From NCBI GenBank assembly GCA_025964675.1, contig JAOPYI010000262.1, positions 1-59,245 of the forward strand: a stretch of 59,245 bases of DNA, written 5' to 3'. The position numbers and the translations under genes are program-made. This DNA comes from Sphaerisporangium sp. (GTDB lineage Bacteria > Actinomycetota > Actinomycetes > Streptosporangiales > Streptosporangiaceae). The notes under the pieces were generated by a model, which saw only the letters and a list, made by a program, of their open reading frames with translations, ran no database searches and had not been told where the DNA came from. Position 1 is the first letter of the stretch. The number at the start of each line of letters is the position of its first letter. Positions 30,682-43,112 of this stretch are shown here, piece after piece.

Positions 30682-30816
30682 GCCCGGCCGTCCGAACACT
30701 CCCCCGCTGTTCGAGCCGAGGTTCATGCCCGGCCGTCCGAACACTCCTGCGCTATTCGAGCGAGGGCCCGGCCGTCCGGACACTCCCGTGCCAGCCGCGC
30801 GGCTGCGCTACTCGAG
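30682..30816. repeat. Three tandem imperfect repeats upstream of murT
   Basis: GCCCGGCCGTCCGAACACTCC occurs at 30682-30702 and 30727-30747, and with one change at 30766-30786 (periods 45 and 39). Each copy is followed by a GCTNTTCGAG or TGCGCTACTCGAG-like block; the last such block reaches the stop codon of the ATPase gene. The origin could be local duplication. They could serve as sites for a regulator of murT-gatD or as RNA processing signals. They are too few and too irregular for a CRISPR array. Confidence 0.65.
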
Positions 30817-33800
30817 GAAGGACAGCTCCGCCTGGTGCTCCGCGCCCCCCTCGAACGGCAGCACGAACCGCCGAGGCCACGACAGCACGGTCTCCAGCCA
30901 CCCGGCACCCATGGTCTGGGAGATGTGACGGACCCGGTCACGCGGGTCGACCCCGATCGTGACGGTCGAGAAGTCCTCCTGCACGCCCTCGTGCTCGTCG
31001 TCGCCGAGCAGCACCCGCCAGGCGAGGGCCCGGTTTCGCTCCATCTCCATGGACAGCGGGTGGTGGCGCAGCGCCTTGGCCCGATGACCGAGCAGCTCGG
31101 TGCGGGCCATGGTGTCCACCGCGCCCGATCCGTTGACGCCGAGGTGGGGGTACGGCTTGCCGGACCGGTCGGTGCCGAACAGGGCGTACTCCATGGTGGG
31201 CGCGGGACTGCGGAGGTTCGGCGCCGGATGGCCGTAGGGGAAGAGCCGATCCACCTCGTGCACCCAGCGGATCTGCGGGATCACCCAAGCGGCCCCCGGC
31301 CGCTCGCCGGCGGCCGGCGTGGCCTGCCCGGACGGGTCGAGCAGCGCCGCCGCCACCTCCGCCGCCTTCACCGTCAGCAGGCCAGGGTCGTAGAACGTGC
31401 GCAGCGACCACGCCCGCCTGGCGACCGCCCGCTCGGCGAGCGTCGCCAGCAGGCACTCACGCCGCCTCGGGGGAAGCTCGGCCCAGATGTCGGCGAGGAC
31501 GCGCGGCACCCCCGGCAGCGACCGGTTGGTGCAGAAGGCCAGCACCACGGTGTCGGTCCAGATGCGCAGCCACGCCCACTCGGGGGCGTCGGCGAGCAGG
31601 TCGGCCTCGCGCAGCTCGAACAGCGTGCAGGCCTTGCCGGTCACGCATTCGTGCCCGCAGGCGGCGGACCGGCGGCCGCGGATCGGCGGGATCGGGCCGG
31701 GGACGGTGTGCTCGCGGTGCTCGCCGAGGGGCACCTGGATGCGCAGCGGGCGGTCCATGCCGTCGGCGAAGACGGCGGCGGTGCCCGGCTGGAGGGAGAC
31801 GACCTGGCGGGACTGCTCCTCGCTGAGGTTCATGGCCGCGCCGACGAGCCTTCGGTCGTCCTCGGCCGGGAGCCGGTGCACGACCTTCAGGGCGGTGTTC
31901 TTCACGACGTCGGCGATGAGCTTGGTCGGGATCTGCTCGGCCACGACGATGCCCTCGCCGTACGCGCGGATCTCGGCGAGCATGCCGGCCAGCAGCTCGA
32001 CCGCGTGCGTGCTGGCCCGCTGTGCGCCTCGGTCGCGCAGCAGACGGTGGGCCTCCTCGATCACGATGACGTGCTGGAGGCCGCGTGCCTTCTCCTGCCT
32101 GGCGCGCATCCGCAGGTGCTCGACGATGCGGATGATCAGCGTGCCCATCAGGAACGCCTTGTCCTCGTCGTTGGCGACGTCCTCGATCGCGAACACGACG
32201 TTGCGCTGCAGGAGCCCGCCGATGTCGGCGGGGTGGCCGCCCTCGAAGAAACGGCCGGCCGAGCCGACCCTCAGGCTCCGCAGGCGGAGGCTGATGAAGC
32301 CTTCGACGTCGGCCTGGACCTCCCTGCCGTACCCGATCTCCTGGATGACCTCAAGGGCGTGCGTCTGTAACTGTTCGAGCGTGGGCACGGCCGGCTGCAC
32401 CGCCGCTCCGGGGATGCCGCCGCCGGTGACGACGTCCCAGCCGTTGGCCTCGTAGACCCGTTGCAGGGCCAGGGACATGATCTGCGGGAACGGCTCCTCG
32501 GCGTCGAAGGCGGCCATGAACAGCGCCCTGACCATGTCGATGTGCGCCTGGACCGGGTAGCCGGGCTCCGGGGCGAGGGGGTTGACGCTGAAGGGCACGT
32601 TGTCCGGCGCCGAGGGATTGATCACGGTCAGCGGCGCCAGGTGCTCGACCCGTCCGGCCATCGCGGCGTACTCGGACTTGGCGGGCTCGATCGCGAGCCA
32701 CGGGATGCCCGCCTCGGTGAGCTGCTCCAGCAGATGGCGCACGGTCTGCGACTTGCCCGAGCCGGTGGCCCCGGTGATGAAAGCGTGCCGGTTGAGCGTC
32801 GCGAGGGGCACCCGGAACGACCCGACCGCGCGGTCCTGCCCGTCGATGATCGAGCCCAGGTCGACCACCGGCTCCCCGGTGTTGCGCACGTCGGCCTCGC
32901 TGGTCACGTCGAAGAACCCGGCGTCGAGCACACGCACGCCGGGCACCTCGCGGCGGGGCAGCCCCGCCAGTGCTGCGAGGGCACCGGCCGTGGCCGCGAA
33001 GGGCGTCGCCGCGCCGTCGGCCGGATCCTGGAGGGTGACGCCGAGCGCCTCGGCGAGGGCGTACACCGGCTCGCCGGAGGTGGACCGGCCGAACCCCGCG
33101 AGTACCGGCAGCGACAGAGCGCTGCGCAGCCGGTAGGGGTGGTGGCTCATCTCGACCGAGCCGACCAGCACCGGGGCGATCTGCCGCAGCTCGTCGGGGC
33201 TCGCCGCGCCGGCCAGCACCCGGACGTTCCACAGCCCGGCCTCGCGGAAGGCGTCGAGCTCCTGCATCCGCCGCTCGGCCCGCTCGGCGTCGAACCGGCT
33301 GCGCTCGGAGGCGTCGCCGTACTGCCGCAGCACGTTGAGCTGGGTACGCAGGTGGGCCACTTCGGCGTCGAGCAGGTCGGTGGGCTCGGCCACTACGAGC
33401 CAGCCGAACGGGCGCGACATGAGCGTGACGAGCGTGGACTCGAACAAGGTGGGACGCAGCAGCTCGTCGGGGCCGGGCTCCCTGCGCCCGTTGAGCGGCG
33501 GGGCCTGGCGGCCCGGGCAGGGCGTCCACGCCAGGTCGGCGAGGTCGGCGAGCCAGTCGTCGCCGATCTCCACGCCGCGGGCGCCGCCGGGGAACAGCAG
33601 CGGCTGCGGCCCCTGCGGCGGCTCCTCGACGGTGGCGCTGGAGGCCCGGCGCGGCGGGCGCGGCGGCGTGAGCGGGCCGGCGTTGGTGACCAGCTCTAGC
33701 GGCGCGCCCGACCCCCGGGACAGCCAGCCGATCACGAAGGGACGGTTGCGCTGGGCGGCGGAGAGCACGGCGGGCAGGACGGTGACGAAATCCCACTCGG

Positions 33801-41839: not shown

Positions 41840-43112
41840 CAGTGGCGGCCTCGGCTCGCCGCCTCCGTTCCGCGCCGGCGGCGATGTCGAACGTCGCCGC
41901 GAGCAGGCAGGTCGTCAGCACGGTGGCAGCGAGACCGAACACCAGCTCGACCGGTACGTCTACAACATTCCAGTAAAGCAGCGGGTGGTCGCTGCCGACG
42001 AGGTAGGCGACGCCACGCCGGCCGTAGTCCTCCCCTACCTTGAGCGCGACGAAGCAGAGCGCGAACAGCCCGAACAGCGGCCCCCCGCCGCGCACGGTCA
42101 GACGCACGGTGTTCGCCAGCGGCACCCAGTGCCCCCACCGGCCGAAGAACCTGGTCAGTGTGCGGCGCGTCAGCGAATGCGTCCGCGCGGTGATCGTCTC
42201 TCCCGCCTGGGCCACCGTGGTCTCCAACCGAGTGCCCTTGATCACGGTGTTGGCGTCCTCGGCGTAGGCGCCGTACATCAGGATCGCGACGGTCAGCCAC
42301 GCCGCGGGCAGCACGAGCGCGTCCCAGGCGTACGGCTTGACGGCGCCGACCAGTCCCCAGAAAGCCTGCCAGCCGGGGATGTGCAGCTCCAAGTTGCCGA
42401 GGAAGCCTCCCCACCAGGACATGGCGGCCCGGCCGCCGACCCAGTCACCGCGCGAGACGACAACCTGTGCGCCGTAGTAGAAGAAGGAGAGCTCGCAGAA
42501 CGCCACGGCGATGGCCGCCGGCCGGCTCTCGTTCCGCTCGTGCCAGATGGTGAAGAAGTAGCGCGCCACAAACGCCGCGATCATGATCCCCAGCGTGACA
42601 TTGAAGTTCAACGTGGTGAGGATCTGGCCGGTGTTCTGGTGCTGCCCGGTCGCCAAGTCGTAGAAAGCGCCAGCAAAGCCCTTTTTATCGCTCTGGCGTT
42701 GGATATCCATGTTGAGGAAGGCGCGCACGTCGTCCAGATGCCATCCCCAGGTCAGGTAGAGCGCGACAAAGGGGATGATCACCCTGCTCAGACTCCCGAC
42801 GAACCCCTCCTGCTCATCTCCGTCGGCCCGTCGCGCACGCATCTCCCACAGCGCCCCGCGCAGCGTGTAGAACATGCCGACGCTCACGACCAGGTTGGCC
42901 ATCACCATGACGATGAAGATCAGCATGGTCAGCGCGAGCCGCAGCTCCGGCATCGAGCCACGGGCTAGCTCCGTGCCGCCGACGAGCAGCCCGAAGCGCA
43001 CGAGCTGCCCTGCGGAGTACCACATCACCAGCGGCAGGAGACATCGCCCGGCCAGGCGCAGGGTGTGCCAGGGCAGCGACCAGGCGGACGGGGTGCGGAT
43101 GGATTCGGACAT
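41724..43112 (-). CDS. Cassette 2 protein D: polytopic membrane protein
   Basis: 462 residues from ATG 43112 (MSESIRTPSAWSLP), with about eight membrane segments (LIFIVMVMANLVVSVGMFYT, VIIPFVALYLTWGWHL, LVFGLAATVLTTCLLAATFD). It is the homologue of the protein at 38119-39477 with a longer, Ala/Arg/Ser-rich cytoplasmic C-terminus. An ATG 9 bases earlier lies inside the -10 hexamer and is rejected. Convergent overlap with gene c is 116 bases, against 37 in cassette 1. Confidence 0.75.
   Translation of the reverse strand: MSESIRTPSAWSLPWHTLRLAGRCLLPLVMWYSAGQLVRFGLLVGGTELARGSMPELRLALTMLIFIVMVMANLVVSVGMFYTLRGALWEMRARRADGDEQEGFVGSLSRVIIPFVALYLTWGWHLDDVRAFLNMDIQRQSDKKGFAGAFYDLATGQHQNTGQILTTLNFNVTLGIMIAAFVARYFFTIWHERNESRPAAIAVAFCELSFFYYGAQVVVSRGDWVGGRAAMSWWGGFLGNLELHIPGWQAFWGLVGAVKPYAWDALVLPAAWLTVAILMYGAYAEDANTVIKGTRLETTVAQAGETITARTHSLTRRTLTRFFGRWGHWVPLANTVRLTVRGGGPLFGLFALCFVALKVGEDYGRRGVAYLVGSDHPLLYWNVVDVPVELVFGLAATVLTTCLLAATFDIAAGAERRRRAEAATVNGRTAEPALAQASPRIHSATASARPGSPVPSGPRSAR

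Follow-up and report, generated by a model that had tools for sequence, protein, structure and literature searches.

The stretch of DNA considered here (the window, meaning the whole 59,245 nucleotides that were analysed) belongs to Sphaerisporangium sp., an actinomycete with a genome of 7.77 Mb, and carries at positions 30808-43121 a block of ten genes in which a HerA-family ATPase and a membrane-anchored partner, here called PsA, lie beside two sets of predicted membrane proteins named a, b, c and D. On the minus strand the genes run in the order PsA, HerA, murT, gatD, and on the opposite side follow a1-b1-c1 (plus strand), D1 (minus), a2-b2-c2 (plus) and D2 (minus). A first-pass annotation of the window had described such a block between murT-gatD and a group of sulfur genes; all ten open reading frames (ORFs) were found in their places, and Pfam confirmed the flanking murT (MurT_C, 1.4e-18), gatD (GATase_3, 1.2e-34) and, beyond D2, rhodanese (2.2e-34) genes. 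The gatD and murT genes (28698..30630, minus strand) are co-directional with HerA and lie outside the module; murT is the next gene after HerA, at a distance of 177 bp. PsA (start 35894) and a1 (start 36095) are divergent and have one intergenic region in common, in which a scan for promoters and terminators found none.

The gene at 30808..33903 (minus strand) is predicted to encode a motor of 1031 amino acids (aa), which matches Pfam HerA_C/DUF87 above the cut-offs (5.9e-10 and 1.4e-6) and by these matches is a member of the HerA/FtsK superfamily of ATPases. The NCBIfam models CedD, HerA and HerA_antiphage match it below their cut-offs, and PADLOC reports mad8 (5e-20), HerA models and a weak PDC-M16A for this protein and no hit for the other nine. 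In its Walker A motif (GATGSGKS, 32749..32772, minus strand) and its Walker B motif (EEAH, within the region HVIVIEEAH at 32047..32073, minus strand; the string EEAHRLL is itself invariant) the catalytic residues are unchanged in 16 aligned sequences, that of the window included, down to 37% identity, and the P-loop pattern occurs in 52/52 HerA proteins. The protein continues into a C-terminal extension in which four cysteines (Cys 749, 753, 759 and 817), likewise invariant in 16 sequences, might form a metal site.

PsA (33954..35894, minus strand; 646 aa, with the start placed by alignment of homologues and the longest ORF extending to 36047) carries, by hydropathy, a pair of hydrophobic segments near its N-terminus, and the window protein has no Pfam match above a cut-off. 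Its closest named relatives, at up to 95% identity, are those of Sphaerisporangium species. The position of the P-loop reads GGTLPGWS (35319..35342, minus strand), without GK[ST]; the P-loop pattern is found in 0/60 members of the family, in which this site reads GGTxxGWSA or similar. The Walker B position (VAGAD, 34632..34646, minus strand) has G in 59 of 60 aligned rows, with a gap in the other, and A as the following residue in 46, such that the Walker-B-like strand ends in G-A instead of D-E in most members. PsA looks, from these alignments, to be nucleotide-dead across its whole family and not merely in the window genome. The earlier description of a motor with intact Walker A and B next to a membrane-anchored protein lacking Walker A is borne out on both counts, and the Walker B acid of the partner is gone as well. 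Comparison of the PsA family profile with TrwB gave only a weak resemblance (E 0.84-0.85), over a C-terminal stretch with the pattern RVxExxVxPxELxxLP; three hits that score better than TrwB in the same search look like matches of chance or composition, and the Pfam hits of 20 PsA members do not include the type IV coupling protein (T4CP) family. This resemblance is suggestive of PsA being a relative of the coupling protein VirD4, which the TrwB match fits and does not prove. PsA as a homologue of HerA was also considered, and rejected when hhalign gave no match.

PsA was found in 59/61 genomes of the family and in 145/150 of the order, where it is near-universal, and in 1/149 genomes of the phylum (the Sphaerisporangium genome itself), the last being a shallow look with a single-sequence query that might pass over distant PsA proteins. 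HerA, at E <=1e-60, was detected in 90/150 genomes of that order sample and in 44/394 genomes of the class, 20 of them from the own family and 24 from outside it. In 70 of the 80 named relatives having HerA the gene after it is murT, and the remaining 10 gave no murT match within the DNA examined; the HerA-murT gap reaches 0.5-2.3 kb in some of the 70, and toxins were not searched for in these gaps. At eight family loci (L045-L052), read over 16-20 kb, PsA lies beside murT-gatD and neither HerA nor the cassette is present, and HerA was not matched in any of the seven of these genomes that were sampled for it. Where both genes are present, their identities between loci rise and fall together (r 0.946 over 44 loci, with 0/2000 permutations as high). 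We conclude that HerA and PsA constitute a conserved actinobacterial unit, of which the pair in the window is apparently a core-genome version that is inherited vertically.

Insight into what such a pair might do comes from its relatives at other sites, in other actinomycete families and on Streptomyces and Nocardia plasmids, where toxin-type genes often follow it with overlapping or nearly touching ends. At 43 HerA genes outside the murT locus, the ORFs behind HerA were counted from its stop codon, because toxin genes with unusual codon usage (in Streptomyces clavuligerus and Nocardia) had escaped a simple gene finder, and by our own reading of the ORFs a toxin-type gene begins within 50 nt in 21 of them. 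Excluded from this count were ORFs at <=50 nt in L104, L121 and L220 (arginine-rich and artefact-like), L115 (a membrane protein, not acidic), L221 (113 aa) and L205 (at a contig end). The Pfam scan covered 23 downstream proteins, namely these 21 and those of L101 and L108, which lie 254-283 nt from HerA; two of the 21 (L112 and L114) are at second loci in own-family genomes and have no Pfam match. Ten of the 23 match toxin-type enzyme families: an EndoU nuclease (3.6e-23), ADPrib_exo_Tox in two proteins, YwqJ-deaminase in four (with MORN_2 proteins after two of them), a calpain-type protease (Peptidase_C2) accompanied by a DUF6406 protein, a barnase-like protein (Ribonuclease, 5.1e-4) and a RelA_SpoT match (4.4e-4). 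The last two are below the cut-off and both have a fitting antidote nearby, the gene next to the barnase-like one matching Barstar at 5.5e-19 and an HD protein being the second gene on from RelA_SpoT. An antidote family was recognised beside some of the toxins only.

RefSeq records illustrate how tightly these genes can be arranged. A plasmid of Streptomyces clavuligerus carries PsA, HerA, an ADP-ribosyltransferase and a 134-aa protein with ends that overlap or are 10 bp apart; a Nocardia plasmid carries PsA, HerA, a 725-aa protein with weak likeness to a lipase-type model, and an ankyrin protein; and S. antimycoticus has PsA, HerA, a RelA/SpoT-like protein, a 94-aa protein and an HD protein (11 of 43 plasmid records matched by HerA were opened). 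The toxins of L097, L204, L212 and L213 have a common N-terminus (N60 z 22-35) and C-termini that are unlike in five of the pairs (C120 z <2), and L204 and L209 exhibit the reverse pattern, in which the C-terminus is common and the N-terminus is not. By their predicted products, related pairs elsewhere adjoin genes with the attributes of polymorphic toxins: a constant N-terminus, a variable C-terminus and an adjacent antidote. It is because homologous pairs directly precede such toxin-type genes that export, which the first-pass annotation had listed first among several possible functions, appears to be the likeliest theme of the pair.

Other features of these neighbourhoods deserve mention. 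Membrane peptidases of the M48 family are encoded beside PsA at L101 (6950-8491) and L111 (11216-11998) and could process cargo. At L098 a HerA-PsA pair with no coupled toxin-type ORF is flanked by an AbiEi-like gene and a YkuD L,D-transpeptidase gene; L104 and L106 similarly have no coupled toxin-type ORF and, by clustering, the same neighbours, and the YkuD cluster is also represented at L107. HerA-like ATPases on Bacillota plasmids, of Lactococcus and Exiguobacterium (L123 4504-8704 and L246 4759-8685), directly precede a nuclease-type toxin gene, of the WHH/colicin type or HNH, behind which lies a small gene (SMI1/KNR4 in Exiguobacterium). The upstream proteins tested at the Lactococcus and Exiguobacterium loci included no PsA, and coupling of HerA to toxins would seem to extend to the Bacillota with other partners. 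The HerA loci of Priestia, Acinetobacter and Rhodococcus have hypothetical proteins downstream.

The other eight genes of the block form two similar cassettes. The first consists of a1 (36095..36754), b1 (36751..37461) and c1 (37466..38155), all on the plus strand, and of D1 (38119..39477) on the minus strand; the second comprises a2 (39649..40317), b2 (40314..40979) and c2 (40976..41839) on the plus strand and D2 (41724..43121) on the minus strand. The starts of a1, a2 and D1 (36095, 39649 and 39477) are revised positions that are probably correct, and the assignments were made from the ORFs and hydropathy, together with a family a alignment for a1 and comparison between the two sets for a2, b2, c2 and the D proteins. 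The a, b and c proteins had been described as single-pass, with the N-terminus inside and Cys-free outer domains. All six indeed lack Cys and have a single strong hydrophobic segment near the N-terminus (preceded in c1 by a longer cytoplasmic N-terminus); the predicted orientation is backed by a net basic N-side in 5/6, c1 being balanced (11 K/R, 11 D/E), and b1 has a second, marginal hydrophobic peak. The D proteins, thought to have about eight membrane segments, have eight hydrophobic segments in D1 and seven in D2. D1 and D2 share 42% identity (E 2e-107), well beyond chance, and the 3' end of each overlaps the convergent c gene, by 37 bp (38119-38155) and 116 bp (41724-41839), respectively; D and c overlap in 48/71 of the cases in which they are neighbours in relatives. 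Family b is assigned to DUF4352 (PF11611) by the matches of 6/26 members at E <=0.1 (best 4.9e-7), window b1 itself falling below the threshold. No significant Pfam or PDB match was obtained for D, and PDB sequence searches with D and b gave nothing significant.

A cassette census at E 1e-6 covered 81 relatives (80 and a Nonomuraea gerenzanensis record), 67 of which were read over >21 kb. One set is present in 59 of the 67, two sets in five, and none or only c in three. All five two-set relatives are Sphaerisporangium species (one with an a gene that was not matched), and two sets also occur in L040, a further genome of the family. In a tree of 89 D proteins, which includes single D copies of L129 and L033, D1 and D2 of the Sphaerisporangium lineage together with one L040 copy fall into two sister clades (96/90), and the second cassette, as judged from this topology, is therefore a lineage-specific tandem duplication in the Sphaerisporangium stem. 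The duplicated surface parts of the earlier proposal correspond to this tandem duplication, and a second copy is the exception among the relatives. An extra, distant a-b-c-D cassette lies elsewhere on the chromosome of a genome from the genus of the window (L230 4876-7844).

The ten genes had also been read as one system, and the distribution of the cassette bears directly upon this. The D profile has matches in 104/150 genomes of the order: 61 with a high-scoring D of the locus type, all of which (61/61) have HerA, and 43 with a distant D only, of which 32 are without a HerA match. Twenty distant D loci, read over 12-15 kb, have the same convergent layout, with b beside D in 19 (none is above threshold at L239), a in 14 and c in 14, and both ATPases went undetected at all 20; a NUDIX gene lies alongside one distant cassette (L231). 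In a sample of the class, D was found in 16/118 genomes, five from the own family and 11 from others, and 12 D loci from these 11 genomes have a and b beside D in 12/12 and a recognised c in one, again with neither ATPase detected. Altogether, 32/32 distant cassette loci are without detected HerA or PsA, and the HerA-PsA pair is also found without the cassette. A survey of co-occurrence had been named as a check on a single system; the pair and the cassette are neighbours in 64/67 family relatives, and the cassette also occurs widely apart from the ATPases. With 32 cassette loci lacking detected ATPases, a single machine is no longer the default, and that part of the earlier interpretation was not upheld. 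The cassette is an independent, widespread actinobacterial module that was probably wrongly grouped with the ATPases. The gene-level observation was correct and valuable, and its interest lies in the two ATPase-type proteins, for a reason that is invisible from the window.

On balance, and by a small measure, we favour the view that two modules lie side by side in the window, a motor and dead-receptor pair of the toxin-export type and an autonomous a-b-c/D cassette. The first module would combine the HerA-type motor with a membrane-anchored PsA that has lost its nucleotide motifs. A cargo toxin might carry its export signal in the constant N-terminus, PsA might be the membrane receptor that binds it, and HerA would then drive the cargo across the membrane at the expense of ATP; the pair in the window would be the same machinery with a cargo that is encoded elsewhere or has changed. 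The second module would be an autonomous set of single-pass proteins with one polytopic protein, which adjoins the first in most of the Streptosporangiaceae examined, as a neighbour by chance or by recruitment, and which may or may not be an envelope part of the pair. A bolder version, to which we give less than even credence, is that HerA-PsA energises a hitherto undescribed export route for actinobacterial polymorphic toxins, with a soluble HerA motor acting through a catalytically dead, membrane-embedded and possibly VirD4-like receptor that reads an acidic or proline-rich N-terminus common to toxins that are otherwise unrelated, and that the Streptosporangiaceae copy has been domesticated and has drawn in the cassette as an envelope part.

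A number of observations weigh against this two-module picture and the export role it assigns to the pair. No toxin or antidote gene adjoins the pair in the window, a statement that concerns the neighbourhood and not orphan toxins elsewhere in the genome, which were not searched for. The remaining 22/43 HerA genes away from murT have, by our reading, no coupled toxin-type ORF, Pfam gave nothing informative for 13/23 downstream proteins, and the toxins of L101 and L103 have no common N-terminus (z 1.0). The presence of PsA in 145 and of HerA in 90 of 150 order genomes (counted at unlike thresholds) is not accounted for by a strict two-part motor, and the profile comparison of PsA with HerA detected no homology. 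The correlation between HerA and PsA identities also reflects the common ancestry of the host genomes. Finally, the adjacency of pair and cassette in 64/67 relatives suggests some link between them.

That adjacency speaks for one envelope-spanning machine, in which HerA and PsA would be the motor, D a channel and a-b-c the outer parts, the cassette having been recruited in the Streptosporangiaceae. The presence of HerA wherever D is of the locus type, and the intergenic region common to PsA and a1, point in the same direction. We nevertheless regard such a machine as unlikely, in view of the 32 distant cassettes without a detected ATPase and of four genomes (G266, G301, G322 and G325) in which pair and cassette are separated by ~50-100 kb or lie on different contigs. 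Two of the four (L224 and L226) still have the cassette next to the rhodanese gene and a small gene, both of which match their window counterparts at the beginning. Moreover, at E 1e-6, L131, L133 and L182 have the pair but lack a complete cassette.

A role in envelope housekeeping, in which the pair beside murT would have given up toxin export and would act in cell-wall or septum biology instead, likewise seems improbable to us. The order PsA-HerA-murT-gatD is kept among named relatives as described, PsA is near-universal in the order, and the toxin-free pair at L098, which is outside the family, lies by a YkuD L,D-transpeptidase gene; gene order is circumstantial, however, and the YkuD neighbour cluster occurs also at L107, where the pair does have a coupled toxin-type ORF. 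An anti-phage HerA system or a DNA translocase or conjugation module, as might be read from the PADLOC and NCBIfam resemblances, is very improbable, since nuclease, NADase and relaxase families are unmatched among the ten proteins, the distribution is that of a core-genome element and homologous pairs carry toxin-type genes instead. For want of matched partner genes both the anti-phage and the conjugation readings were rejected. The rest of the window includes a tRNA-Thr (TGT) at 6352-6426 and a tRNA-Gly (CCC) at 58317-58390.

The preferred reading of two modules invites comparison with known systems. No relaxase or other part of a type IV secretion system (T4SS) was matched among the ten window proteins (elsewhere in the window only murT, gatD and rhodanese were scanned), in agreement with the earlier statement that this is not a conjugative element, and no Ecc/Ess or WXG100/LXG family was matched among the ten either. 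As in type VII (ESX) export, which is powered by an FtsK/HerA ATPase, there is a motor of the HerA/FtsK superfamily, a membrane-anchored partner and an association with polymorphic toxins and antidotes; unlike in that system, motor and membrane anchor are separate genes and the 23 toxin-type proteins scanned match no WXG100 or LXG family. The type IV VirB4/VirD4 pair resembles HerA-PsA in having one live ATPase and one protein anchored by two N-terminal segments, with the weak TrwB likeness noted above, and differs in that PsA is without catalytic motifs and no other T4SS part was matched among the ten proteins. The anti-phage HerA ATPases have the core ATPase family in common with window HerA, which differs from them in its Cys-containing C-terminal extension and in having no matched nuclease or NADase partner. 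Family b resembles the DUF4352 proteins (PF11611) and is distinctive in its association with a, D and, in many cases, c within a cassette of fixed, convergent layout.

Zhang et al. 2012 (PMC3482391) give the type VII secretion system and the T4SS as routes for toxins that involve FtsK/HerA-related ATPases, and a review of T4SSs (PMC12857230) does not, in the sections consulted, describe the HerA-PsA pair. The exported alarmone synthetases of Streptomyces (PMC12691689) recall the S. antimycoticus locus, where the pair is followed by RelA/SpoT-like and HD proteins; an S. albireticuli alarmone-synthetase cluster beside TrwB/TrwK/TrwI-like genes, read there as a T4SS, may be the same kind of locus as HerA-PsA-toxin. 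Among the titles listed by searches of open-licence PubMed Central papers, including those on HerA and polymorphic toxins, we found no description of the pair or the cassette.

The findings might be of consequence at two levels. To our knowledge, the exit route of those actinobacterial polymorphic toxins that are without a WXG-type domain is an open question in the field, and a live motor with a dead receptor, as a two-gene core directly upstream of swappable toxins, makes this question testable with one operon, such as the copy on the Streptomyces clavuligerus plasmid. At the same time, a widespread and as yet unnamed actinobacterial envelope cassette, composed of D and a DUF4352-family protein, has been separated from the ATPases beside it, so that each can be studied apart.

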